Origin: Magnetococcales bacterium
GTDB taxonomy: Bacteria > Pseudomonadota > Magnetococcia > Magnetococcales > UBA8363
NCBI GenBank assembly: GCA_002753515.1
Contig: PEAK01000005.1
Coordinates: 51,167 to 115,166, forward strand
Length of the DNA stretch: 64,000 nucleotides
Reading direction: 5' to 3'
A model generated the notes under the pieces. That model worked only from the letters and a program-made list of their open reading frames with translations, was not told where the DNA came from and did not search any database. The position numbers and the translations under genes were made by a program. Positions 2,358 to 14,351 of this stretch are shown here, one piece after another; the stretch's first letter is position 1; every line of letters begins with the position of its first letter.

Positions 2358-5300
2358 ATGCAACCCGAATCAGTGCCCGTTCCGGTTGTCTTGGTGGATA
2401 TGGAAGGTTTCAGTCCACTGAAACCAGACGAACAGAGCGCTGTGGTTGCCCGTCTGCAAGAGGCCCTCACCCAAAGCATCAAGCTGCTGATTGGATTTAC
2501 CAACCCCAAGGCGATCATTCGCCATGGTACCGGGGATGGTTATTATCTTTTTCTGGAACATTATCCAACCCCTGTGGCCATGCGTTTTGCCCTGAATCTG
2601 GAAAATATCCTTCGAGACGATAATGCCAACCATCCGAACTATCCGTTGCGGTTACGGGTGGGTCTCACTCTGGGCCGTGTTGGGCTTCAGGGGGATCAAT
2701 ATTTGGGAGAGGTTTTGACTGAGGCGGCACGGTTGATTGACCACGAATGGATCAAGGGGCTGCTGAAGGAGCGCATAGAGAATCCTATCGTCCTGCTGGC
2801 ATCCCAATTTTTTTGGGATAACTGGCAAAACCATGAACTGCGCACCGATCCAGCGCTCGCTTATCCCGAGGAGCGTCCCTGGATTTGCGCCGAATTGACC
2901 GTCAAGCATGGTGAAGTCCTGTTGGCCCATGTGCAGACGGATGCAGGAGTGTTTCAATCTATCCAGAAAAAGGCACCGGTGGATCAAGGGAGTACCTCGG
3001 TCCCTGATCTGACCCCGTGGTTGAAGGAACTGCTAGACTACACCCGCAATATTCAGATTATTGGCATTGGCTCGGGTGAAGGGAGCGGACAAAAGGCTTA
3101 TCTTTATCCCATAGAACAACTCTACACCCCATTGAAAAGTCGCAATCCCCTTGGTGCGGTTGATTCCATGGATGGGGAGTTGCGTACTGGTATTAGGATT
3201 CCTGGGGATGGTCCCGGGAGCGATATGGCTGGGGTATCCTTGGCCGATCTGCTGCCGAAACACAAACGACTCTTCATCGAAGGCGATCCCGGTTCAGGAA
3301 AAACCACTTTTTTGCATCTGGCCGCCGCCATGCTTGCCAAGGATTTGCTGGATGAAAGAGGGGTTGCAAGCGAAAGTTGGCGCAAACGCCATCTGGGTAT
3401 GGACGATACAAAAGAAGCCCCCAAGCCTCTTTTCCTCAAGTTGTCGGAGCTGGCCGTGCTGCTGGCCAAGGAGAGTACACTGACGAAAAAGGACGACCGC
3501 TTCCGGCTATTGGAGCTTCTCCAAGGTACGCGAGGGGCCGATCAGGATCCTGCCTGGAGTCATCATTGGCAATCGTTGCTTGAAGCGGGGAACGTTCTTC
3601 TGTTGTTGGATGGCTTGGACGAGGTGGCGGATGAAACCATCAGGGAACGGGTGTTTGCCATTTTTTCGGATGCTGATGAACATTGGAGAAACAGCCAGAT
3701 TGTGGTTACAAGCCGTCCTTTTGGCGCGGAGAAACTCACGAAGATGGGATTTCATCGTGCGGTGATCGAACCCTTCGGTGCGGGAGAGACGCGGGAATTC
3801 ATCAACTGTTGGTCGGCGGCCTTGTTTGGCCATGCTATTGGCAAAAGGCCTACGGGTGTTGCAGGAGAAAAAGCCGATGCTATGGAGAAAGCCATCCTCA
3901 ACCGTCCCGCCATCCGCAAGCTTGCGGCCAATCCGGTGATGCTGACCTGTCTTTGTGTCGTGCATTGGAACAGGGGGCAATTACCTGAGGGACGGTCGCG
4001 TGTGTATGACGTGGTGATCGACTGGCTGTTGGGTAGTCGGGAGGTTATTCGCAACGCGCATGGCTATCATAAGCGCTTTGCCATGGAGGCTTTTTCTGCC
4101 ATTGCTTTTGCCATGATGGGGGGGAAGCAAGGGAACAAACAGACGATTCTTGATCTGAAAAAAGCGGTAGATATCGTCGATCCCTTTGTTTCACGCTATT
4201 TTTCTGAGATAAATCCGAATCAACGGGAGGATTTTACGCGCAAGTGGCTGCGTTTTGAAGGCGTTTACAGCAACATTTTGGTGGAGAAAAACACCAACGG
4301 GTTCAGCTTTTGGCATTTGACCTTCCAGGAATATCTGGCGGCTAAAGAACTAGCCAGCATGCGTGATGACAAAAACAAGGGTTGGTGGCCTGTAGTGGCC
4401 AGTCGCTTGGAAAATGTTCAGTGGCGGGAGACAGTGGATCTCTTCCCTGGAGTGTTGTTGGATGGAAACCTCAGGTTTCGTGTCGATGACCTGTTGACCT
4501 TTGTTATGGAACGCTACAGCGGAAGTGGCTTGGCCAAGGTTGCTTGCAAGGCTGGCATCATGAACCGCATTTTAGAGCCGACCAAGGTTTACGGCTATAG
4601 GCCCGATGCTGTGACCCAAGAGCAATACCAGCAGGTGCTCAAGCAGGCTATGGCGATTTTCACCCTGAAGGGGGCCGCCCAGGTGCCCATCAAGGATCGC
4701 CTGCTTGTGGCGGAGGCCCTTGGTCAGGGAGGTGACCCGCGTCTTGCTGAGGATCGATGGCGGGAAAACCTGATCAAGGTACCCGGTACAGATATCGCCC
4801 TGGGAAAATATTTGGTGACGGTGCAGGAATACCAGCGCTTTGTCGAGGATGGTGGTTATGACAACCCCGACCATTGGTGGGAGGAGCGTGCCTGGACCTT
4901 CCGCCAAGCCGAGGGATGGCAAGAGCCAAGCGATTGGGCCAACCAATTGGATCACCCCAACTGGCCGGTGACGGGCGTTTCCTGGTATGAAGCGTCAGCC
5001 TATTGCCGTTGGCTCCAGACACAGAGAAATGTAGAGTTTTTTTTGCCTGAGGAAGAAGACTGGAAAACAGCGGCCACTCCTGCCCAAGGTAAATACTCCT
5101 GGGGCAACGCAAAGCCTACTCCAGAGTTGGCCAATTACGACAAGAGCAAAATAGGCCATGCTACTCCGGTGGGGCTTTATCCCGATGGCAATGGTCGGTA
5201 TGGTCATTGCGATTTGGCGGGTAATGTCTGGGAATGGAGCGCCGCTTCATGGATGGACTCCGATTTTTCTGACGAGAATATTCAAAAGTACGGACCACCG

Positions 5301-5438
5301 CAGGTGGTCAGGGGCGGGTCCTGGGACTACCCGGTCGAGGACTTCCGGGCCGCCATGCGCTTCAGGAACCATGCCGTCTCCCGCAGCTGCTTCCTGGGCT
5401 TTCGCGTCGCTGCCCCCGCCAGCACGGTTGATCCTTGA
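2358..5438 (+). CDS. DGR target 1: cyclase-like - NACHT - FGE/C-type-lectin variable protein
   Basis: 1026 aa with three parts. Residues ~8-150 resemble a class III nucleotidyl cyclase domain: VDMEGFS (Asp14), GTGDGYYLF (Asp60), RVGLTLGRV and a GxVLTEAARL segment in which the usual Asn of VNxAAR is Thr, so activity is uncertain. Residues ~300-665 are a NACHT NTPase: Walker A GDPGSGKTT 309-317, Walker B LLLLDGLDEVAD 414-425, and the FWHLTFQEYLAA signature near 651-662. Residues ~805-1024 are an FGE-sulfatase (C-type lectin) fold with NVWEW and RGGSW. The catalytic cysteines of true FGE are absent. The last 39 codons before the tail are a DGR variable repeat. Likely a cytoplasmic NLR-like sensor whose tip is diversified by the adjacent reverse transcriptase; the ligand is unknown. 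ATG with AGGA upstream. Confidence 0.88.
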   Translation: MQPESVPVPVVLVDMEGFSPLKPDEQSAVVARLQEALTQSIKLLIGFTNPKAIIRHGTGDGYYLFLEHYPTPVAMRFALNLENILRDDNANHPNYPLRLRVGLTLGRVGLQGDQYLGEVLTEAARLIDHEWIKGLLKERIENPIVLLASQFFWDNWQNHELRTDPALAYPEERPWICAELTVKHGEVLLAHVQTDAGVFQSIQKKAPVDQGSTSVPDLTPWLKELLDYTRNIQIIGIGSGEGSGQKAYLYPIEQLYTPLKSRNPLGAVDSMDGELRTGIRIPGDGPGSDMAGVSLADLLPKHKRLFIEGDPGSGKTTFLHLAAAMLAKDLLDERGVASESWRKRHLGMDDTKEAPKPLFLKLSELAVLLAKESTLTKKDDRFRLLELLQGTRGADQDPAWSHHWQSLLEAGNVLLLLDGLDEVADETIRERVFAIFSDADEHWRNSQIVVTSRPFGAEKLTKMGFHRAVIEPFGAGETREFINCWSAALFGHAIGKRPTGVAGEKADAMEKAILNRPAIRKLAANPVMLTCLCVVHWNRGQLPEGRSRVYDVVIDWLLGSREVIRNAHGYHKRFAMEAFSAIAFAMMGGKQGNKQTILDLKKAVDIVDPFVSRYFSEINPNQREDFTRKWLRFEGVYSNILVEKNTNGFSFWHLTFQEYLAAKELASMRDDKNKGWWPVVASRLENVQWRETVDLFPGVLLDGNLRFRVDDLLTFVMERYSGSGLAKVACKAGIMNRILEPTKVYGYRPDAVTQEQYQQVLKQAMAIFTLKGAAQVPIKDRLLVAEALGQGGDPRLAEDRWRENLIKVPGTDIALGKYLVTVQEYQRFVEDGGYDNPDHWWEERAWTFRQAEGWQEPSDWANQLDHPNWPVTGVSWYEASAYCRWLQTQRNVEFFLPEEEDWKTAATPAQGKYSWGNAKPTPELANYDKSKIGHATPVGLYPDGNGRYGHCDLAGNVWEWSAASWMDSDFSDENIQKYGPPQVVRGGSWDYPVEDFRAAMRFRNHAVSRSCFLGFRVAAPASTVDP
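5310..5426 (+). repeat. DGR variable repeat VR1
   Basis: 117 bp that aligns without gaps to the template repeat at 6942-7058. It differs at 21 positions; 12 of these fall on the 24 template adenines and 9 on the 93 other bases. Changed adenine codons give residues D990, Y991, F1002, V1007, S1008, S1010, C1011 and F1012 of target 1. Seven of the nine non-adenine changes cluster at 5335-5348. The conserved GC-rich 3' end (CTTTCGCGTCGC...) is the probable initiation-of-mutagenic-homing region. Confidence 0.93.
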
Positions 5439-5464
5439 TTGGTTTGGTTTTTGATCTTTGTCGG

Positions 5465-5489
5465 GTCCAGGGGGCGTAGCCCCCTGGAC
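5465..5489 (+). other. Hairpin downstream of VR1
   Basis: Perfect 11-bp stem GTCCAGGGGGC with a 3-nt GTA loop, 38 bp after the 3' end of VR1 and just past the stop codon. The same stem sits at the same spacing after VR2. In the Bordetella phage DGR a hairpin/cruciform just past VR stimulates retrohoming, so an analogous role is inferred. No T-run follows, so it is not a standard terminator. Confidence 0.8.
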
Positions 5490-5497
5490 TTGCAAAA

Positions 5498-5661
5498 TGA
5501 CACGATTTTGTCATTCTTGGGCTGTTTTTGTCATTTTACTTGACAAAACAGGCAAATTTCCTTAGATTTTGTCAGTTATGTGTCACTTTGGCGATTGATT
5601 TGTCACTTTTAGAGTGACAAAATGACAAATCAAGAAGGAAATTGTCACTTTGTATCTGTCA
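5498..5661. promoter_or_regulatory. Left array of TGACA/TGTCA motifs
   Basis: Eleven TGACA or TGTCA pentamers in 164 bp, starting at 5498, 5509, 5529, 5541, 5570, 5581, 5601, 5615, 5623, 5643 and 5657, usually inside TTTGTCA or GTGACAAA contexts. Steps of 20, 14 and 8 bp recur. The array overlaps the start of the HTH gene, so it could be its operator. A matching array lies at the other end of the DGR core. Confidence 0.6.
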
Positions 5662-6315
5662 TTGACCGAAGCGGCCATTGTTTTGGGAAAGACGCCGCGT
5701 CAGGTGCGTTATCTCATCAAGAACGGGATGTTAAAGGCGAAGAAGGAAAAGGGGTGTTGGGTTATCGACAACGGAGATTTACCCCTTTCCACAGCCCAAC
5801 GCCAAGCCATGGCCCGACGTGCCGAGACCGCGCAAAATGCCATGGCCGAAGCCACAGCACCTTTGCAAAAAGCGGCCTCCCTGGAATCTGCACCCGCAGA
5901 AGCGAAAACCACAGACGGCGAAAAGGAGAAAAAACCCTACTCTGTCACCGATCTGAGGGCCTTCACCCTGGGGGCGGAAATTTATCGCGAGATGGACAAT
6001 GATCTTGGGAGGGAAAATCCGGCCAGGCTTTGCCTTTTTGATGCCCTGAAAAAGCTTTGCCGGGGGTGTCATGCCTTTCAGCCACCACAAAAGGAGGCTC
6101 GCTTTACCGAGGCACGAGAGGCGGCAGCGGATGCAGTTGCCATTTTGCTTTTGGAAGGCGAGGCCCATGATCCCCAACGAATGCTCCTGGCCAATCGCAT
6201 CGAAACCGAACTGATTCCCAAGCTGGCGGCTTTGGCTGCCGGTCAGGAAAAACGGGCGCGCAAGAAGCAGCATGGCAGTCTTAGTGGCTTTTTTCCCGGC
6301 ACCTTTGGGGAGTAA
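5650..6315 (+). CDS. HTH (MerR/excisionase-like) protein, DGR-linked
   Basis: 221 aa from a TTG start; the RBS GAAGGA at 5634-5639 fits this start and no in-frame ATG or GTG does better. Residues 3-45 are a helix-turn-helix of the MerR/excisionase type (LTEAAIVLGKTPRQVRYLIKN, then a wing-like segment). An Ala-rich linker (~50-95) leads to a helical C-terminal domain (~100-205) of unknown family. The stop overlaps the avd start in TAATG, implying co-translation. The gene starts inside the TGACA/TGTCA array, so self-regulation through that array is plausible. I infer a DNA-binding regulator or cofactor of the DGR; no enzyme motif is seen. Confidence 0.75.
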   Translation: MYLSLTEAAIVLGKTPRQVRYLIKNGMLKAKKEKGCWVIDNGDLPLSTAQRQAMARRAETAQNAMAEATAPLQKAASLESAPAEAKTTDGEKEKKPYSVTDLRAFTLGAEIYREMDNDLGRENPARLCLFDALKKLCRGCHAFQPPQKEARFTEAREAAADAVAILLLEGEAHDPQRMLLANRIETELIPKLAALAAGQEKRARKKQHGSLSGFFPGTFGE

Positions 6316-6692
6316 TGCGACCCGCCCCCCTGTATGGCGACACCATGCGTCTCGCCGCCCTGATTCTCCGCGTGACCGAAGCGCCAACGTTCAGGCAATC
6401 GCCATTGGGGTGGCGCTTGCAGGAGGGGGTGTTGCGTCTTGTGGATCATGTGGTACTGGCGTTGGCCGGACAGGAGCGGCAACAGCGCATCGCTGCTGCC
6501 GATGCCGAACTGCAAACTTTGCGGGCTCACTGTTTTCTTGCCCTGCAAATGGCCTTGATGGAGGAAGATCTTTTTCTAAACCGCACCCAGCACGGGAAAC
6601 GTAGTTTCCCGGCGTCATCCCCGCGAAAGCGGGGATCCAGAAAGTCAGGGAAGGTAGAAAAGTCCTCTGGATCCCCGCTTTTGCGGGGATGA
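6315..6692 (+). CDS. avd: Avd-like DGR accessory protein, C-terminus replaced by an inserted element
   Basis: The open frame is 125 aa, but only about the first 88 residues are native. They form helices with the Avd pattern (GWRLQEGVLRLVDHVVLAL, then ADAELQTLRAHCFLALQMAL). Avd is a small four-helix-bundle protein that pairs with the DGR reverse transcriptase and template RNA. At 6577 a 150-bp TA-flanked element enters; the current last 37 residues are read from it. Downstream at 6727-6804 the lost C-terminus (25 codons, VAEAAQKVGRQLGGW..) is still open. Position between the HTH gene and TR, and coupling by TAATG, match classic DGR order. Whether the altered protein works is unknown. Confidence 0.75.
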   Translation: MRPAPLYGDTMRLAALILRVTEAPTFRQSPLGWRLQEGVLRLVDHVVLALAGQERQQRIAAADAELQTLRAHCFLALQMALMEEDLFLNRTQHGKRSFPASSPRKRGSRKSGKVEKSSGSPLLRG

Positions 6693-6726
6693 CAATAACT
6701 ACACATTCCAAGATAGCTGCGGTTTA
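6577..6726 (+). mobile_element. TA-flanked MITE copy 1, inside avd
   Basis: 150 bp including the bordering TA bases. It begins TAAACCGCA and ends TGCGGTTTA, and holds two GCG-rich palindromes (CCCCGCGAAAGCGGGG and CCCCGCTTTTGCGGGG) in opposite arms. Collapsing to one TA joins codon 87 of avd to the remaining 25 codons in frame. TA duplication and the short imperfect terminal repeats suggest mobilisation by an IS630/Tc1-mariner-type transposase supplied elsewhere (inference). Confidence 0.85.
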
Positions 6727-6804
6727 ACAGTGGCCGAAGCGGCGCAAAAAGTGGGTCGGCAGTTGGGTGGATGGCGTAAAAAAGGGCAGGCCAAATCTGC
6801 GTGA
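6727..6804 (+). pseudogene. avd: Displaced C-terminal remnant of avd
   Basis: 25 codons and a TGA stop that continue the avd frame when the element at 6577-6726 is removed with one TA left behind. The peptide is basic and helical at its start (VAEAAQKVGRQLGGW) and ends in Lys-rich residues, as expected for the last helix and tail of an Avd protein. The restored protein would be 113 aa, a normal Avd length. There is no plausible independent start codon. Confidence 0.7.
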
Positions 6805-6941
6805 TGTCGCATCGGTTACCCTCTGGATGTGCCCCGGCGACGCAGAAAACTTGCCACCCAGGGGAAGGGAAGCTATCCTGAATCGGGGACGCTTCGAATG
6901 AAGAATTTCGCTATCGCCATGGACATCATCATGAACTCCCA

Positions 6942-7058
6942 AGGGGCGGGTCCTGGAACAACCCGGCTGCGCACCTTCGCGCCGCCATGCGCAACAGGAA
7001 CCATGCCGACAACCGCAACGACAACCTGGGCTTTCGCGTCGCCGCCCCCGCCAACACG
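6942..7058 (+). repeat. DGR template repeat (TR)
   Basis: 117-bp non-coding copy of the two variable repeats, placed between avd and the reverse transcriptase. In the VR frame it contains eight AAC codons, the typical adenine-rich template design in which AAC can become many residues but never a stop. It matches VR1 at 96 of 117 positions and VR2 at 101 of 117. A TAG follows at once (7059), and the 3' end differs from the VRs (GCCAACACG against GCCAGCACG), the usual IMH*/IMH distinction. It should be transcribed on the + strand and reverse-transcribed with adenine mutagenesis. Confidence 0.93.
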
Positions 7059-7185
7059 TAGGACATCCCCGCCGTGCAGAAGCATCCCCGGTGCCAGCCA
7101 TGTGCGCCGAAACATTCCATGCCCGCCCGTTCCCGTAAGCGCCAAGCGCTGAGCGTCCGGGCGGGCTATCATCTCATGACAGATC

Positions 7186-8178
7186 ATGCGTCGCATCGGC
7201 AATCTTTTTGATGCGATCCTCTCTCCGGGCAATCTGTGGCGGGCTTGGCAGGAGTTCGCCAAAGGAAAACGCCAGCGCACCACGGTGGCTGATTTTGAAT
7301 GGCGAGCCCCACAGGAGGTTTTGTGTCTGCATCAGCAATTGATGGCGGAAAACTACCGTCCCCAGGGCTACCGCCTCAAGATGATCCACGAACCCAAACG
7401 CCGCCTGGTGGCCGCTGCCCCGATACGCGACCGCATCGTCCATCATGCCATCTATCGGATTCTGTCACCGCTTTTGGACCCAGGGTTGATTCGCGAAACC
7501 TGGGCTTGTTTGCCGGGGCGCGGCAGTCATCGGGCGCAGATTGCCTGCATGGGGGCCATGCGGGATTATCCCTGGCGGCTAGCCCTGGACATACGGCACT
7601 ACTTCCCCAGTATCGACCACGCCATTCTCCTGGAAAACGTCATGGCACGGTGTATCAAGGATCGTCGCCTGCTCGAACTGCTCAGGAAAATCTGTCAAAG
7701 TGGTGATGGACTCTATCGGCAGCCGGGAATTGGGGAATTTTTGGGATTTCCGTCTGATTTTCCTCCGGCAGGCTGTGGTTTGCCCATTGGCAATCTGACC
7801 AGTCAGTGGCAGGCCAATCATTATCTTTCCGGCCTGGATCATCATGTGAAGCGCATCGTGCAGATTCCTGCTTATCATCGCTACATGGATGACATGCTCT
7901 TTTTTGCCCACTCTAAAAGCCAGTTGCAGGAGACCCGTGTTTTGGTGGCGGAATGGCTCTGGGAGCAGCGCCGTCTGAAACTGAAGCATCCCAACGTTGC
8001 TGTTCATTCCACCAAGCAGCCTATGACTTGGTTGGGCAAACGCATTTCTACTTCTGGCATCAACCCAAGCCGTCGGCTGATCCGTAAAATGCAGTGTCGC
8101 ATGACCGAACTGATCCGCCAGGGTGATGAAGAGACCATTCGCCATGCCGTTGCCTCCTACCGTGGGGTACTGCTGTAG
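7186..8178 (+). CDS. DGR reverse transcriptase
   Basis: 330 aa. The palm carries ALDIRHYFPSIDH (135-145), LPIGNLTSQ (199-207) and the catalytic YMDD (233-236). The GNLTSQ form of motif 4 is diagnostic for DGR enzymes, as opposed to group II intron or retron enzymes. No maturase or endonuclease domain is present. It would copy TR RNA with errors at adenines and direct the cDNA into both VRs. The C-terminus stops soon after ASYRGVLL, so the thumb looks short compared with many relatives; the stop lies just before the right TGACA array. ATG start; avd and TR lie upstream on the same strand. Confidence 0.94.
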   Translation: MRRIGNLFDAILSPGNLWRAWQEFAKGKRQRTTVADFEWRAPQEVLCLHQQLMAENYRPQGYRLKMIHEPKRRLVAAAPIRDRIVHHAIYRILSPLLDPGLIRETWACLPGRGSHRAQIACMGAMRDYPWRLALDIRHYFPSIDHAILLENVMARCIKDRRLLELLRKICQSGDGLYRQPGIGEFLGFPSDFPPAGCGLPIGNLTSQWQANHYLSGLDHHVKRIVQIPAYHRYMDDMLFFAHSKSQLQETRVLVAEWLWEQRRLKLKHPNVAVHSTKQPMTWLGKRISTSGINPSRRLIRKMQCRMTELIRQGDEETIRHAVASYRGVLL

Positions 8179-8186
8179 ATAAAGAA

Positions 8187-8313
8187 TGACAAACTGTTTT
8201 TTAGAAGTGACACTTTGTCAGTTTGTCATCCTCAGAGTGACACATGGGATGACAAATTGTCATTCGTAGGGATTATTTTGTCAGTTTGTCACCTTTTGAA
8301 TGACATTTTGTCA
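8187..8313. promoter_or_regulatory. Right array of TGACA/TGTCA motifs
   Basis: Eleven pentamers in 127 bp, starting at 8187, 8208, 8216, 8224, 8238, 8250, 8259, 8279, 8287, 8301 and 8309, with repeated 8-, 14- and 20-bp steps. They resemble the left array in context (TTTGTCA, AGTGACA). The array starts right after the reverse transcriptase stop and ends at a MITE. One further TTTGTCACTTTT match lies at about 8506. Together with the left array it brackets the HTH-avd-TR-RT core. Confidence 0.6.
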
Positions 8314-8316
8314 GTT

Positions 8317-8467
8317 TAAACCGCAGCTATCTTGGAATATGCAGTTATTGTCATCCCCGCGAAAGCGGGGATCCAGAAAGTTAGAGAAAGGTGTGTAGAC
8401 TCCTTGGATCCCCGCTTTCGCGGGGATGACGCTAGAAAACTACGTGTCCCGTGTTGGTTGCGGTTTA
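8317..8467 (-). mobile_element. TA-flanked MITE copy 2
   Basis: 151 bp in the opposite orientation to copy 1: it starts TAAACCGCAGCTATCTTGG and ends TTGGTTGCGGTTTA. It has the two internal CCCCGC..GCGGGG palindromes. It lies in the 416-bp space between the reverse transcriptase and the 3' end of target 2, which otherwise holds the right TGACA array and the VR2 hairpin; no gene is seen there. Confidence 0.85.
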
Positions 8468-8543
8468 AACGGACAAAATCAGGCGGAAAACGTCAAATTT
8501 GTCACTTTTACGGACAAAAAACGGCTTTTTTCGTCATTTTGAA

Positions 8544-8568
8544 GTCCAGGGGGCTACGCCCCCTGGAC
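8544..8568 (-). other. Hairpin downstream of VR2
   Basis: On the minus strand this reads GTCCAGGGGGC, loop GTA, GCCCCCTGGAC, identical to the hairpin after VR1. It is 38 bp past the end of VR2, exactly the spacing seen at VR1. The 38-bp spacers of the two loci differ at only two positions. This conservation outside coding sequence argues that stem and spacing are functional parts of the DGR target site. Confidence 0.8.
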
Positions 8569-8594
8569 CCGACAAAGATCAAAAGCCAACCCAA

Positions 8595-11500
8595 TCAAGG
8601 ATCAACCGTGCTGGCGGGAGCGGCGACGCGAAAGCTCAGGGTGTCGAAGCGGTTGACTGCATGGCTCCTGTAGCGCAAGGCAGCGCGAAGAAACGCAGCC
8701 GGGTTGTCCCAGGACCCGCCCCTGACAGGGCGAACATTTCCATCGTCTGTGCTGACAACGGGATCTTGAGCCGGTGAACTCCCACTACGTTTTCGGTAAG
8801 CGTTTCTATCCCAATCATCCTGGCACCACTCCCAGACGTTACCTGCCAGATCGAGATGACCGAAGGGTCCACGACCAGCGGGATAGTGTCCCACCAATGA
8901 TGGTTTGCCGTTGTTCCTGCCCATGTCAAAACAGGCCAACTTTTTTGTAGGTTCTTTATCGCCCCAAGGGTAACGGAGACTCTCCTTACCCCGTGCGGCA
9001 TACTCCCTTTGCGCCTCGCTGGGTAGAAAAATTATCTGACCCGACTCCCGGGTGAGCCAGGCACAAAAAGTCATGGCATCATGCCAATCTACCCCTACTA
9101 CCGGTTGTCGGGGGTCGGCAAATCTTTGCTCGCGCCAATAGCCAGGTTCCTGGTGTTTTGCCGCTTTGAGAAAAAGAGCATACTGTTGGTTGGTCACCGG
9201 CATTTCCGCCAAATAGAAGGGCGAGAGGATGACCTGATGTTCCGGTTTCTCGTCGTCGTCTCCATTGTTGTCTCCCATGGTAAAGACTCCTCCAGGTACT
9301 GGCAACAAACGCAGACCCGGCATGGGTTCCAGAATGAGTAAGTCGATACTTTTCCGAATAATCCCTGTTGGGGTACCCACAGATTTATCACGGGGGGGCG
9401 ATTTGATTTTCAGTGAAGGGCTTTGTTTGATATCTCTTTCCCCGTTCAAGTGTTGCACAAGTTGGGTAACAACTTTTTGCAGATCGTTTGAGCGCCCATC
9501 CACCTGGATGAGGTTTTCCCATTTGACGAGCGATGCTGGATCTACCGGACTATCTGGCAACAACAGGGTGAACAACCGACAATGGTTACCTAAATACATC
9601 AATCCATCCTCGGTATCCGCCTCCGCAAGCGCATGTCCATTCCCAGCCAGAAAAAGGATAAAACGGCATTTTTGCCGAATCTCATCCAAATGTTGCAGCC
9701 AGTCATGAACAGCCCAGTCCCGTTCATTTTTCGGCCAGGGATGCCATCCCGCCCGGGTTGACAATAGAGAAGCCAGTTGATCGGCGACCGTTTCATCCAC
9801 AGGGGCATGGATCAAGAGCAGGTCGAATTTCTTTTTCGTACCCTCCGTATCCTCCCCCAGAAGACCCTTTGCCAGTCCAGAGACGTTGGGGTTGGCATGC
9901 CCTTTAAGAGTTGCCGCCGCCTGTAGCACATCGGGGTCAGTCACCCCGTTGAGCAAGCGCAATAGTGCTGTTAGTTCTCCAACCTTAGTTTTGTTATCCT
10001 TGAGTGAGGCAACAAACACGGAATAATCAGGTTGCACCGCCTCGGTCAGCATGGTCCGCATCAGTTCGTTGCGGCTTTCCTCCAGGATACCCGGTAACAA
10101 CCGCTTCATCATCGGCGCAAACAGCCTGTATCCCGGGATGGCGACCAGCAACAACAACACTTCCCGCCACCAGTTCTCATCCGCCTGCCCAGCCAGAATA
10201 TTCAACAACCCATCACCTTCCGACATGACCACATGCCGTGCCGCCAAATATTCCTGCAAACCCAGGTGCATGAAGCCGTATTGTTTCTGTGCGTATTCGA
10301 TGAAAATACCGGTATCCCGGTTGAGCCACTCCAAAATGGCAAGTCCTGTCGGGGCATCCTTCTTTCCTGCAAGTTGTTGTTCGGCAAAATTGGCAAACTC
10401 CAACTGTCTGACATTATCCCGCCGTTTTTCTTGGTGAAGTTTCCAGGCCAAAGGTTGCAGGATATCCATGGCTGCTTGCAAATCCAATAACGGCTCCACG
10501 TCTGCTTGCTCGCGACGCCACTTGTTCAGCATGATCTCCAGGCATTTTTGGTAAAATGCCGCCCGGTTTCTCGGAATCTCTCCCCCCCTGAGGACGACCA
10601 GGCACAGCAAGGTGAGCAGCAAGGGATTGCCCATCAATAGCTTGATGCGTTGGTCAGCAAAGGCTGTTTTATCCATGGTACCGAGCAATCGCAGGGAACG
10701 GTTCTTTGCCTCTGTTGCTTGCGCATCGCCCATATGTTTGCAGGCTTCGTCAAACCAGACGTGAACGAATTCCTCTACCCGTTGTCCGTCCAGGGGTTTG
10801 ACATCCAAAGGAAAAAAATTCTCTAATCGTACGTTACCTTCATACCCCGCATAACGGCAGGAGACGATAGCGTAGATGTTTCTTTCCTGAAAGCCAACCA
10901 ACTGGCCAGCGATACGTTCTGCTACCCGAGCCCGCAACTTGGAATCGGCAATTTCATCCAAACCATCAAACAGCAACAACAGATTGCCCGATTCCCAAAG
11001 ATTACGTTTGAACTCCCCTGGGAAACGCCCGCCGGATAATTCCCGCAATTCCTTGTTGATGTAATGGATTAATGGCTGATGCAAATATTCCTCGGTAAAA
11101 TGACGCAACCTTAGAAAAATCGGTTTCATGCCGTGGGGTAGAGCCAATTGTTCTGATCCTTGCTTGAGGCAAAGATGGAGGATTTTTTTCAGGGAGGTCG
11201 TTTTGCCCGCCCCCGGTTCACCAAACAACACCACGCATTGCCTGAGCTTTCCATCTTTGTCCTTGAAGATATCCTTCAATTCCACATCGCCAAAGCTTTG
11301 TTCCCTGGCTTTATCGCCCAGACTCTTTGTGAGTCTACTTTCAAGATCGACGCCGAAGGCCCGTTGCGAGATACGTAGAGGGATGAAGACCCGCTCTAAA
11401 TCCAGTGAAATATCACCCCCCTCCACCCCCAACAGCGACACCTGGCTAAATTTGGCCAATGCCCAATCTGAATAAGTGCTTTTCTTTGTGTCCTCAATAA

Positions 11501-12020
11501 TCTTTTCTTGTTTGGGTTGTGGCTTATTGGCTAGTTCGCGGATGCGATGATTTAAATTCTTGAAAATTAGCTTTTGTTCAACTTCTGACATCTGTTCCAA
11601 CGTTCGTTGCGGTGTGGCGAACCCCTGAAGGGAGGTCAGTTTTCTGGTTTCATCCGTATTGGAAAGGGTAAAAGGGAAGCGGGTCTCTTCGGCATCTGAA
11701 GGGCTAACAAAGACGAGAAGAATTGTTAGTGTCTTCTTTTCCCAAGCATCAACAAGTGGCGGCAACTCCTTTTCCCAAATAAAATCGGAGGCCAGGAAGG
11801 CTTGCGATATAAAAAGAACAGCGACATTGGCCTCACGGATAGCTTGGTTGATTTCTACTTCCCATTCGTGTCCCGTTTTGATGCCGCCGTCATGCCAAAC
11901 AGTGGCCAACCCTTCCCGTTCCAATGTCTTGGCAAAAGGAAGGAAGCCTTTCAATATCTTGGCATCGGCATGGCTGTAACTTATGAAAACTTTTGCGTTT
12001 GGCATGTCCGGGGTATCCAT
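8595..12020 (-). CDS. DGR target 2: TIR - NACHT - TIR-like - FGE/C-type-lectin variable protein
   Basis: 1141 aa. Residues ~9-105 are a TIR domain (KVFISYSHADA; WEKEL with Glu85 as likely catalytic residue, so NADase activity is possible). Residues ~255-600 are NACHT: Walker A GEPGAGKTT 267-275, Walker B LLLLFDGLDEIAD 347-359, and GFMHLGLQEYLAA near 582-594. Residues ~731-858 look like a second, degenerate TIR-like domain (FDLLLIHAPVDE). Residues ~899-1138 are an FGE-type C-type lectin fold (GGVFTMG, NVWEW, RGGSWDN) ending in VR2; FGE catalytic cysteines are missing. Expected to be a cytoplasmic NLR-like sensor with a toxic TIR output, its tip varied by the DGR. It follows glyS by 28 bp on the same strand, so some transcription from glyQS is possible. 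Confidence 0.9.
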   Translation of the reverse strand: MDTPDMPNAKVFISYSHADAKILKGFLPFAKTLEREGLATVWHDGGIKTGHEWEVEINQAIREANVAVLFISQAFLASDFIWEKELPPLVDAWEKKTLTILLVFVSPSDAEETRFPFTLSNTDETRKLTSLQGFATPQRTLEQMSEVEQKLIFKNLNHRIRELANKPQPKQEKIIEDTKKSTYSDWALAKFSQVSLLGVEGGDISLDLERVFIPLRISQRAFGVDLESRLTKSLGDKAREQSFGDVELKDIFKDKDGKLRQCVVLFGEPGAGKTTSLKKILHLCLKQGSEQLALPHGMKPIFLRLRHFTEEYLHQPLIHYINKELRELSGGRFPGEFKRNLWESGNLLLLFDGLDEIADSKLRARVAERIAGQLVGFQERNIYAIVSCRYAGYEGNVRLENFFPLDVKPLDGQRVEEFVHVWFDEACKHMGDAQATEAKNRSLRLLGTMDKTAFADQRIKLLMGNPLLLTLLCLVVLRGGEIPRNRAAFYQKCLEIMLNKWRREQADVEPLLDLQAAMDILQPLAWKLHQEKRRDNVRQLEFANFAEQQLAGKKDAPTGLAILEWLNRDTGIFIEYAQKQYGFMHLGLQEYLAARHVVMSEGDGLLNILAGQADENWWREVLLLLVAIPGYRLFAPMMKRLLPGILEESRNELMRTMLTEAVQPDYSVFVASLKDNKTKVGELTALLRLLNGVTDPDVLQAAATLKGHANPNVSGLAKGLLGEDTEGTKKKFDLLLIHAPVDETVADQLASLLSTRAGWHPWPKNERDWAVHDWLQHLDEIRQKCRFILFLAGNGHALAEADTEDGLMYLGNHCRLFTLLLPDSPVDPASLVKWENLIQVDGRSNDLQKVVTQLVQHLNGERDIKQSPSLKIKSPPRDKSVGTPTGIIRKSIDLLILEPMPGLRLLPVPGGVFTMGDNNGDDDEKPEHQVILSPFYLAEMPVTNQQYALFLKAAKHQEPGYWREQRFADPRQPVVGVDWHDAMTFCAWLTRESGQIIFLPSEAQREYAARGKESLRYPWGDKEPTKKLACFDMGRNNGKPSLVGHYPAGRGPFGHLDLAGNVWEWCQDDWDRNAYRKRSGSSPAQDPVVSTDDGNVRPVRGGSWDNPAAFLRAALRYRSHAVNRFDTLSFRVAAPASTVDP
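8607..8723 (-). repeat. DGR variable repeat VR2
   Basis: 117 bp, minus strand, aligning without gaps to TR. It differs at 16 positions: 10 of the 24 template adenines and 6 of the 93 other bases. Changed adenine positions give D1105, L1115, Y1117, S1119, V1122, F1125 and T1127 of target 2; most match the variable sites of target 1 with an offset of 115 residues. The 3' end shares the CTTTCGCGTCGC motif and AGCACG terminus with VR1. Confidence 0.93.
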
Positions 12021-12048
12021 GATAAAGATACAGGCCTTTCACTTTTGG

Positions 12049-14142
12049 TCACAAACGGCTGATATCGGCCACTTTGTAGAAGGCGCCGCGTACCCGGGCA
12101 AGTAATGCCAAACGATTCAGTCGCTTGCCCATGTCCGGGTCCATGACCATGATCTGATCAAAGAACGTGTCGATCCCTGCCCGTAAACCGGCCAGATGAC
12201 CAAGGGCGTGGGCATAGTTGCCGTGCTGAATGGCGGCATCCACCTGTTGTTCGACTTCGACCAAACGCCCGAGGAGTTCGCCTTCGGCGGGTTCGGTGAA
12301 TTGGGCAGGATCCAGGGGGTGGTGTTGCCAATTTTCCGTAGCCTTGGAAAGAATGTTGGCAATACGTTTGTTGGCCGCCACCAGTGCCCCGTAGGATTCC
12401 ATCGTTCTGAACTGGTTGAGGGCGACGATACGTTCGCGTATATCGTAACAATCATCAAGCCCCAATGTTTGCACCGCTTCGATCAGGTCGTAGTCAAAGC
12501 CGCTGGTTTTAAGGTGGTTTTGCAAGCGTCCATCAAAAAATGCCGTCAAATTGTCCACTGTCTGCTGCCGATTGTTGGTCAATACGCCTGGTGCGAAGGC
12601 ATCGTAGGCCGATTCCATCAGGGTAACCCAATGGAACCGGACACCACCATCGTCCAGCAACATGCGAATGATGCCCAAAGCGGCACGACGCAAAGCAAAG
12701 GGATCTTTGGTGCCAGTGGGGACCAGACCGATACCGAAGCATCCCGCCAGGGTATCCAGTTTGTCGGCCAGGGAAACCAGGCGGCCCTCCAGGCTTTCCG
12801 GCACGCTGTCCGCCGCACCCATGGGCCGGTAATGTTCGCGTATCGCCTGAACGATTGCCGGATCGGCCCCGGCATGCCGGGCATAATACCCGCCCATGAT
12901 CCCCTGCAATTCGGGAAATTGTCCGACCATGCCGGTGACTAGGTCGCATTTGCACAAACGTGTGGCTGTCAGTACCTGGTCGCTGTTGACGCGAGATCCT
13001 GCAATGGCTGCCAAACGTTTGACCAACTGTTCCATGCGGACCGTTTTGTCGTAGAGGGTGCCCAGTTTGGCTTGGAAAACGACATTCTTTAAAGATTCCA
13101 GTCTATTGATCAAAGGTTCCTTGCGATCTTCATCCCAATAGAAAGCGGCATCTTCCAGGCGGGCACGCAATACCCGCTCGTAGCCGCGTTTGACCAACGT
13201 GTGATCCGGGACATCGTTATTGGAGATGGCGATGAAACAGGGCATCAAGGATCCGTGGTTATCCAGGATGGGAAAATATTTTTGATGATTCTTCATGGAG
13301 GTGGTCAAGACCTCCGGGGGAATTTTGAGATAGTCGGGGGAGTAATGGCCCAACAGGGGAATCGGCCATTCGGTCAGATTGGCATTTTCCTGCAACAGCT
13401 CGTCCGGGATGACGGCTTGGCCACCCACGGTGTTGGCCAACCGTTCGATACCTTCCCGGATGATTTGTTTACGGCGCTCCATGTCGAGAATGACATGCCC
13501 CGATGCCATCGCTTGGTGATAATCGGCGATGCTCGACACACCAAAAGGACCTCGCGCCATAAAACGATGTCCCTGGGTGGACTGACCCGTATGTAGACCG
13601 TCACTGGTGGCAAAAGGCAATACACGCCCATTCATCAGGGCCAGCATCCAGTTGATGGGTCGGACGAAACGGGTTTTGCCGCTGCCCCAACGCTGGGTTT
13701 TCGGCCAGGGGAATCCTTCAAGGATGCCCTTCATGAGTTCGGGTAACAGGGATTCCGCTGTCAGCCCGGGACGGTGGATGGTATGGCACAGATACGCCCC
13801 TTTCGGTGTGTCGATGCGTTGTAACTCCCCAACCGATACGCCGCAGCTTTTGGCGAAGCCCGCAGCAGCCTTGGAAGGGTTACCCTGGGCATCGAAGGCA
13901 CGATCCACCGGTGGTCCACGCATTTCCTCCACGCGATCCGCCTGCTGTGTTGCCATGTGGGTGACCATCACGACCAAGCGCCGTGGGGTGCCATGGCTGG
14001 CAATCCGGGTTGATCCACCGACGAACAGGCCCGCTTCCGTCAACTGTTTTTCCATGGCGTCCGCAAAATAGCGGATTCCTGCCGCCAGCATGCCCGCCGG
14101 AATCTCCTCGCAACCGATTTCCCACAAAAATTCCATGACCAT
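12049..14142 (-). CDS. glyS: Glycyl-tRNA synthetase beta subunit
   Basis: 697 aa, normal length for the beta chain of the alpha2beta2 bacterial enzyme that charges tRNA-Gly. The N-terminus (FLWEIGCEEIPAGML) and the interior (KMK-like core, HD-type region and C-terminal DALR anticodon-binding region) match GlyS. It lies downstream of glyQ on the minus strand, with a MITE between the two genes (14174-14351). The first Met is followed two codons later by another (14136), either of which may be used. Confidence 0.96.
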   Translation of the reverse strand: MVMEFLWEIGCEEIPAGMLAAGIRYFADAMEKQLTEAGLFVGGSTRIASHGTPRRLVVMVTHMATQQADRVEEMRGPPVDRAFDAQGNPSKAAAGFAKSCGVSVGELQRIDTPKGAYLCHTIHRPGLTAESLLPELMKGILEGFPWPKTQRWGSGKTRFVRPINWMLALMNGRVLPFATSDGLHTGQSTQGHRFMARGPFGVSSIADYHQAMASGHVILDMERRKQIIREGIERLANTVGGQAVIPDELLQENANLTEWPIPLLGHYSPDYLKIPPEVLTTSMKNHQKYFPILDNHGSLMPCFIAISNNDVPDHTLVKRGYERVLRARLEDAAFYWDEDRKEPLINRLESLKNVVFQAKLGTLYDKTVRMEQLVKRLAAIAGSRVNSDQVLTATRLCKCDLVTGMVGQFPELQGIMGGYYARHAGADPAIVQAIREHYRPMGAADSVPESLEGRLVSLADKLDTLAGCFGIGLVPTGTKDPFALRRAALGIIRMLLDDGGVRFHWVTLMESAYDAFAPGVLTNNRQQTVDNLTAFFDGRLQNHLKTSGFDYDLIEAVQTLGLDDCYDIRERIVALNQFRTMESYGALVAANKRIANILSKATENWQHHPLDPAQFTEPAEGELLGRLVEVEQQVDAAIQHGNYAHALGHLAGLRAGIDTFFDQIMVMDPDMGKRLNRLALLARVRGAFYKVADISRL

Positions 14143-14173
14143 TCAATCCTTTATTCTAAAAAAAGAAGGTGTC

Positions 14174-14351
14174 TAAACCGCAGCCATCTTGGAATGTGTA
14201 GTTATTGTCATCCCCGCCCCCGATTAAAGCATTCGAGGGCAGGCTTCAGCGGGGATCCAGGAAACCAACACACCATTCCCTAGCTTTCTGGATTCCCGCT
14301 TTCGCGGGAATGACGCTGAAAAACTACATATTCCGTACTGGTTGCGGTTTA
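14174..14351 (-). mobile_element. TA-flanked MITE copy 3, at the glyQ stop codon
   Basis: 178 bp, longer than the other copies because one internal arm carries about 28 extra bases (near 14218-14250). Ends are TAAACCGCAGCC and GGTTGCGGTTTA. Its right end supplies the TAA stop of glyQ (14349-14351). Removing it with one TA left would give TAG at the same codon, so the insertion does not change the protein. It fills the space between glyQ and glyS. Confidence 0.8.

Follow-up and report, generated by a model that had tools for sequence, protein, structure and literature searches.

The DNA analysed here, hereafter the window, is a 64,000-nucleotide stretch of contig PEAK01000005.1 from a Magnetococcales bacterium, whose 4.3-Mb assembly of 134 contigs is designated G000. 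Between positions 2358 and 12,020, the window holds the core of a diversity-generating retroelement (DGR) flanked by two convergent genes whose 3′ ends contain variable repeats (VRs). Target 1 (2358..5438, plus strand; 1026 residues) comprises a cyclase-like domain (about residues 8–193), a NACHT domain (303–486), and an FGE-sulfatase tip of the C-type-lectin fold (813–1018) that contains VR1. Target 2 (8595..12020, minus strand; 1141 residues) comprises TIR (11–120), NACHT (262–425), and an FGE-sulfatase tip (906–1133) with VR2. Between the targets, the plus strand carries a gene for a 221-residue helix-turn-helix (HTH) protein of the excisionase/MerR-like type (5650..6315), an interrupted avd accessory gene, a template repeat (TR; 6942..7058), and a gene for a 330-residue reverse transcriptase (RT; 7186..8178).

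Pfam assigns the RT to RVT_1. The protein carries the motifs GLPIGNLTSQ and YMDD, and we take GNLTSQ to be the mark of a DGR-type RT. Its closest match in the PDB is the Bordetella DGR RT (8ub7_A, E 6.4e-34), and we class it as a DGR-type enzyme. It is the only DGR-like RT in the assembly, two other matches being weak (E 0.03 and 0.15). A phage origin was considered and rejected, as a viral scan gave a single RT relative at 28% identity. Among the matches listed for 1316 plasmid RT records, the best were about 36 to 40% identical to the window RT.

VR1 (5310..5426, plus strand) and VR2 (8607..8723, minus strand) align with the 117-bp TR without gaps, and the likeness ends exactly at the repeat borders. 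Changes relative to TR affect 12 of 24 adenines and 9 of 93 other bases in VR1 (Fisher p 3.7e-5); in VR2 they affect 10 of 24 adenines and 6 of 93 other bases (p 8.1e-5). An initial annotation of this DNA had described one TR and one RT between two convergent genes with gap-free 117-bp VRs; its positions and its change counts are exact. It had counted over all 24 adenines. The adenine bias is significant, but not every adenine counts: position 112 is unchanged in all 11 tabulated VRs of the window and its relatives, and position 113 is A in 5/5 TRs and G in 11/11 tabulated VRs, as well as in a twelfth VR that carries an indel. Counts compared across loci were taken within repeat positions 2 to 111, where the window TR has 20 adenines, 11 of them changed in VR1 and 9 in VR2. 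Pooled, the window VRs differ at 20/40 adenines and 15/180 other bases.

Among 48 Magnetococcales genomes, 21 gave an RT match (E ≤ 1e-10), many of them distant and not necessarily DGRs. Four genomes besides G000 (G003, G043, G044, and G045) encode an RT that is 78 to 85% identical over its full length; RT relatives at 85% and 80% identity are named Magnetococcales. The homology search for the same gene order that the initial annotation had proposed found target, HTH gene, avd, TR, RT, and convergent target in all four. A 13,358-base contig, apparently shared by relatives of the HTH gene and of the cyclase-NACHT-FGE gene, likely carries a sixth unit. Seven VRs of the relatives retain the downstream hairpin described below, accompany an intact avd, and align without gaps. 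They are changed almost purely at adenines (90/142 versus 3/628 other bases); TR–VR differences are adenine-specific both at the window locus and in its relatives. Chance origin of the repeats is ruled out by the Fisher tests together with the five-genome comparison.

Two NACHT-FGE targets and their outputs

Pfam detects NACHT and FGE-sulfatase in both targets and TIR_2 in target 2. Walker A and B motifs are intact in 9/9 NACHT-bearing targets, targets 1 and 2 included, and both window proteins have the NLR-like layout of N-terminal effector, NACHT with Walker A/B, and C-terminal sensor. The cyclase-like N terminus taken alone falls below the Pfam cut-off (E 0.078). It matches the solved cyclase 3mr7 by profile (E 6.4e-8), and its structural model (pLDDT 84.5) is matched best by Foldseek to the Ma1120 adenylyl cyclase (4wp8, E 5e-9) and also to the uridylate cyclase 8jsz (E 6.9e-7). 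The fold is that of these class III cyclases, and all 11 sequences compared keep two Asp and the Arg; the position of the catalytic Asn differs, being Thr in 10 and Ile in one. We presume that these four residues have the catalytic roles of the class III cyclase set. Because the catalytic Asn is replaced and the set of two Asp, Asn, and Arg is incomplete, we call the domain cyclase-like rather than a proven cyclase, and its nucleotide product is a prediction. With that wording, the earlier claim of two NACHT targets with cyclase-like and TIR outputs holds, through Pfam domains and, for the cyclase-like domain, through profile and fold.

A protein search with the cyclase-like domain found 10 proteins, itself included, of which six others share the NACHT-FGE layout; one AAA ATPase and one NB-ARC/TPR protein carry it in other settings. 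At 12 further cyclase-like loci (among 23 matches), the full hairpin was found in none and a shorter one in one. The G045 counterpart of target 1 has the same NACHT-FGE chassis with a metallophosphatase in place of the cyclase-like domain, and likeness to target 1 resumes in the linker directly after the N-terminal domain. On this sequence comparison, the N-terminal output is exchangeable on one chassis, cyclase-like or metallophosphatase.

For the FGE tip of target 1, solved EgtB/FGE-type enzymes give stronger matches than TvpA, a DGR variable protein (2y3c, E 1e-5). That ranking, together with the fusions of the cyclase-like domain to an AAA ATPase and an NB-ARC/TPR protein, would suit targets that act as regulators or enzymes, in which FGE would process a substrate and NACHT together with TIR or cyclase would relay an environmental signal. 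We consider this highly doubtful, because the VR remodels the FGE tip, as in binding proteins, and because TIR-NACHT and metallophosphatase-NACHT are published conflict architectures (PMC8195603; this and the other papers are cited from part of their text). By analogy, we infer an immune, invader-sensing function for the targets. The FGE tip would bind an invader ligand, NACHT would oligomerise, and the N-terminal domain would fire; homology predicts NAD loss as the output of TIR and a nucleotide signal as that of the cyclase-like domain.

Interrupted avd and the present state of rewriting

The avd gene of the window is cut by a dispersed repeat resembling a miniature inverted-repeat transposable element (MITE; 6577..6726) that is identical at 151/151 positions to a copy on contig C74. 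The 5′ piece (6315..6575, plus strand) encodes 87 residues, and its open reading frame continues into the repeat to a stop at 6692; the severed 3′ piece (6727..6804, plus strand) lies in a different frame and holds the conserved VGRQLGGW motif. The Avd proteins of the relatives are intact in 4/4 and have 113 to 116 residues. Their model (pLDDT 92.6) has four helices, the last at residues 85 to 113, and matches Bordetella Avd (4dwl; TM 0.83–0.86, E 4.3e-3). At 39.2 bits, a relative's Avd falls just short of the bAvd cut-off of 40, and the sequence-profile match is weak (E 0.15) and covers the C-terminal VGR-LG-WI stretch, which is the part lost in the window. After the cut, 87 of about 114 residues remain, with most of predicted helix 4 gone and no intact Avd-type protein in the window. 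By descent, the window locus is thus a DGR; its accessory gene is broken. The 151-bp palindromic repeat itself is dispersed through G000 in at least 40 near full-length copies, a lower bound from the scoring of 40 among 254 candidates; the window probably has further copies at 8316–8467 and 14172–14351.

A perfect hairpin/cruciform lies 38 bp after VR1 (5465..5489), and target 2 has its own (8544..8568); both are intact. The exact pattern occurs at two sites each in G000, G003, G044, and G045 and at three in G043. Ten of these 11 sites are at unit VRs, and a reversed-pattern control gave none. The third site of G043 lies inside another gene, presumably uvrA. With so few sites per genome, a common terminator is ruled out. 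At L100 (G044:C6:102500-110500), a cyclase-NACHT-FGE gene is followed by half a hairpin and a broken HTH fragment, a relic of another such unit. In orphan targets there, at L102 and L103, and in the stretch after VRc of G044, only the first half of the hairpin seems by eye to remain, which would fit rearrangements with breakpoints at the cruciform.

The TR–RT spacer contains a stem-loop (7121..7166, plus strand) with compensatory changes over the five loci. Of the 16 pairs counted, five are changed on both sides, and 98.8% of cells are paired; two of 500 shuffles scored as high. A second measure, further pair types, showed no excess over shuffles (276/500). The structure is as expected of a folded DGR spacer, by analogy with known elements.

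Non-adenine change in the window VRs (15/180) exceeds that in the hairpin-bearing VRs of the relatives (3/628) with p 4e-8. Elsewhere, two VR-like copies without a full hairpin, in G043 and G044, differ at 26/39 adenines and 24/181 other bases. VRb of G044 was excluded from the clean set for an indel near positions 16 to 21; compared gap-free, it has 20/24 adenine and 14/93 other changes, none of those 14 in positions 22 to 115. G000 has a third target outside the window (C97:13094-13190; L009 5095-5191), a metallophosphatase-NACHT-FGE gene ending in a VR-like stretch with 12/19 adenine and 10/78 other changes and no hairpin. It is probably a frozen former target. Across these sequences, non-adenine drift goes with hairpin loss or, in the window, with the cut avd.

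C97 and C7 hold the only two TR matches of G000 beyond the window. The FGE-like gene on C7 was rejected as a VR of the window TR, with 4/20 adenine and 21/73 other changes. It lies near a contig end and has an asparagine-codon-rich TR-like stretch (C7:21364-21456; L010); neighboring FGE genes vary in or lack this stretch, possibly the remains of another DGR. Beside the units of G043 and G044 are extra TIR-FGE or FGE genes. Short TIR-FGE genes without NACHT adjoin the unit at 3597–4880 in G043 and at 11166–12530 in G044 (RT-on-plus coordinates of L044 and L046), and the VR copy of the G044 TIR-FGE gene carries an indel.

TR position 31 is A in the TRs of 4/4 relatives, C in the window TR, and G and T in the window VRs, so that both VRs were last rewritten before the TR lost A31. 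Following the Bordetella prototype, RT and Avd would together copy the TR RNA with its folded spacer, making errors at adenines, and the resulting complementary DNA would replace the VR beside the hairpin. In that system, inactivation of Avd lowers activity to about 1e-9, and deletion of the stem-loop causes a severe but incomplete impairment (PMC12875486). We regard it as reasonably probable that the locus is one DGR between convergent NACHT-FGE genes, predicted to tune a TIR and a cyclase-like sensor, in which rewriting has come to a stop; the avd cut, the many non-adenine VR changes, and the loss of A31 from the TR all argue that diversification here has probably ended. This DGR lineage probably rewrites its sensors, and the window copy probably no longer does. 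The idea that one retroelement hypermutates two NACHT sensors is supported for the lineage and not supported for the window copy as it now stands. The repeat still matches its sister copy exactly, which suggests that it inserted recently. The VR drift appears to predate it, and rewriting had probably faded before avd was broken.

Several observations weigh against this assessment. The RT and HTH genes compared with those of G045 are under purifying selection (dN/dS 0.11 and 0.13), which, with the intact hairpins, makes low residual activity possible. For five of the 15 non-adenine differences, the change seems to have occurred in the TR and not in the VRs. The need for the lost Avd helix is assumed by analogy, the hairpin loop departs from the phage GRNA consensus, and activity in every genome is judged from single assemblies, one per species. 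PADLOC reports TIR-type and RT-type matches and no NACHT-FGE system. A DGR that is still active, with non-adenine changes as drift between rare rewritings and a shortened Avd that suffices, would fit the intact RT and hairpins and the significant adenine bias of both window VRs. It is nevertheless unlikely in view of the excess of non-adenine changes, the loss of most of Avd helix 4, and a TR loss of A31 that postdates the latest rewriting of either VR.

Judged by positions 29, 36, and 39, VR1 seems to be the older of the two copies. Work on a reconstituted BPP-1 DGR showed much more rewriting of targets that run in the direction of replication (PMC12875486), and by analogy convergent targets would be rewritten at unequal rates. 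The younger look of VR2 is compatible with such an orientation effect and does not show it.

The HTH gene, the TGTCA arrays, and orientation of the core

The HTH protein carries an HTH_17/excisionase-like domain. Among the 48 genomes of the order, its full-length gene is confined to the five that carry this RT, and 5/398 genomes of the phylum have it (E ≤ 1e-8). Partial matches number four, in four genomes of the order, one being the broken fragment in G044. Two distant HTH relatives apparently share contigs (125,015 and 7,132 bases) with DGR RTs, and in one of 120 RT relatives (P0139) the HTH domain is fused to the RT, which could be a deletion product. We infer from this distribution that the HTH protein is a dedicated factor of this DGR lineage.

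Arrays of TGTCA/TGACA motifs stand at both edges of the core in 5/5 loci. The left array of the window (5498..5647; 10 motifs) lies upstream of the HTH gene, and the right array (8187..8504), split by the repeat copy at 8316–8467, belongs to a region with 13 motifs (8179–8606). Left and right counts in the five loci are 10/13, 9/7, 10/8, 11/11, and 9/8, where about one is expected, and the motifs often form 13- or 19-bp palindromes. Density reaches 7 to 12 per 220 bp in the arrays and at most 4 in 13 other RT loci of the order, by which background is ruled out. One cluster of six motifs elsewhere in the window, near 23.3 kb and mostly within an open reading frame, speaks against their specificity. 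The HTH protein may bind the palindromic arrays, control its own operon, and mark the edges of the unit.

The core is flipped relative to the targets in 2/5 loci. The TIR gene is on the HTH side in G043 and G003 and on the RT side in the other three, and the TIR gene at the G044 unit is TIR-FGE without NACHT. An RT tree pairs G000 with G045 (90/97) and leaves the other three unordered, so that at least one inversion of the core took place. Genes flanking the unit in the window were not found in the stretches fetched from the relatives, of which the G003 contig (11.8 kb) offers little flank; this suggests that the unit may move as a whole. Upstream of target 1, positions 1405–2073 encode a predicted PD-(D/E)XK-type protein, with 21-bp tandem repeats that yield a repeated, coiled-coil-like ETDRxMQ stretch.

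Arrays at both edges, an excisionase-like domain, flipped cores, and flank genes not found in the fetched stretches would all suit an HTH gene and arrays that serve mobility or inversion of the core and not retrohoming, or arrays that are plain operators. We hold this to be a credible but doubtful alternative. No recombinase or transposase was seen in the unit, and recombination between the VR-hairpin arms, which in the window are inverted, 190 nt long, and 84% complementary, would itself flip the core. An operator alone explains too little, as the right array sits between convergent 3′ ends, where no promoter is expected. A broader and rather unlikely reading is that of a docking-type cassette. 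Here the core, controlled by the HTH protein and bordered by TGTCA arrays and hairpins, would diversify any effector-NACHT-FGE gene at either edge, flip between two targets, and accept swapped outputs (cyclase, metallophosphatase, and TIR), so that one retroelement would serve a changeable pair of immune receptors. Targets without an edge hairpin would freeze as fossils, and the HTH protein, as a new DGR factor, would guide the RT to where it acts.

Relation to published systems

STAND NTPase-FGS conflict proteins often occur with a DGR RT and a four-helix accessory protein, in several copies per organism with differing effectors, TIR and calcineurin among them (PMC8195603). The targets described here share their effector-NACHT-FGS order and the DGR RT link. 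The available text of that paper lists no cyclase in its STAND-FGS set, although it notes a cyclase-FGS-TRADD-N-caspase protein outside it, and describes no hairpin, HTH gene, or array. Cyclases occur in other conflict systems (PMC7159879 and PMC8195603). In Thiohalocapsa, DGR targets carry NACHT, TIR, or metallophosphatase domains, and some loci are damaged by MITEs (PMC10907252). DGR 3 and DGR 6 of Thiohalocapsa PB-PSB1 (clade 5D) resemble the window in having two targets per DGR, a C-terminal CLec/FGE tip, and a central STAND NTPase. Clade 5D targets likewise share TIR and metallophosphatase domains and MITE-like damage; this likeness is one of targets and locus damage. The convergent targets, cyclase-like output, HTH gene, TGTCA arrays, and either-way core set the present unit apart, and Magnetococcales are not named in the main text of PMC10907252. 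In the literature searched, mostly outside subscription journals, we found no paper that mentions both diversity-generating retroelements and magnetococci and, by title and abstract start among the matches listed, none on TGTCA-type arrays in DGRs.

With the BPP-1 DGR of Bordetella, which supplies the nearest solved structures for both RT and Avd, the window shares TR, RT, Avd, a folded spacer, and a hairpin after the VR, which BPP-1 needs for efficient homing (PMC3240598 and PMC12875486). Unlike BPP-1, the window DGR is cellular, has two NACHT targets, an HTH gene, and arrays, and places a hairpin with another loop 38 bp after the VR. The initial annotation had thought that the paired cyclase/TIR layout may be new. 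DGR-linked STAND-FGE proteins with TIR or calcineurin are published; no DGR-diversified NACHT protein with a cyclase came up in the available text of PMC8195603, PMC10907252, or PMC7159879. The unit is a variation on the published DGR-linked STAND-FGE conflict proteins (PMC8195603 and PMC10907252) and only partly new. Its new details are the exchangeable output, the core flipped in 2/5 loci, the dedicated HTH gene, the framing TGTCA arrays, and a hairpin confined to VRs in four of five genomes.

If this interpretation is correct, rewritable NLR-like receptors also exist in bacteria other than the best-known multicellular hosts, and their outputs can be swapped on a fixed, rewritable chassis. 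The five units would then form a natural experiment, with the hairpin kept, the hairpin lost, or avd cut. As a set, they predict the parts needed for mutagenic retrohoming in a cellular DGR, with the HTH protein as a new candidate factor.

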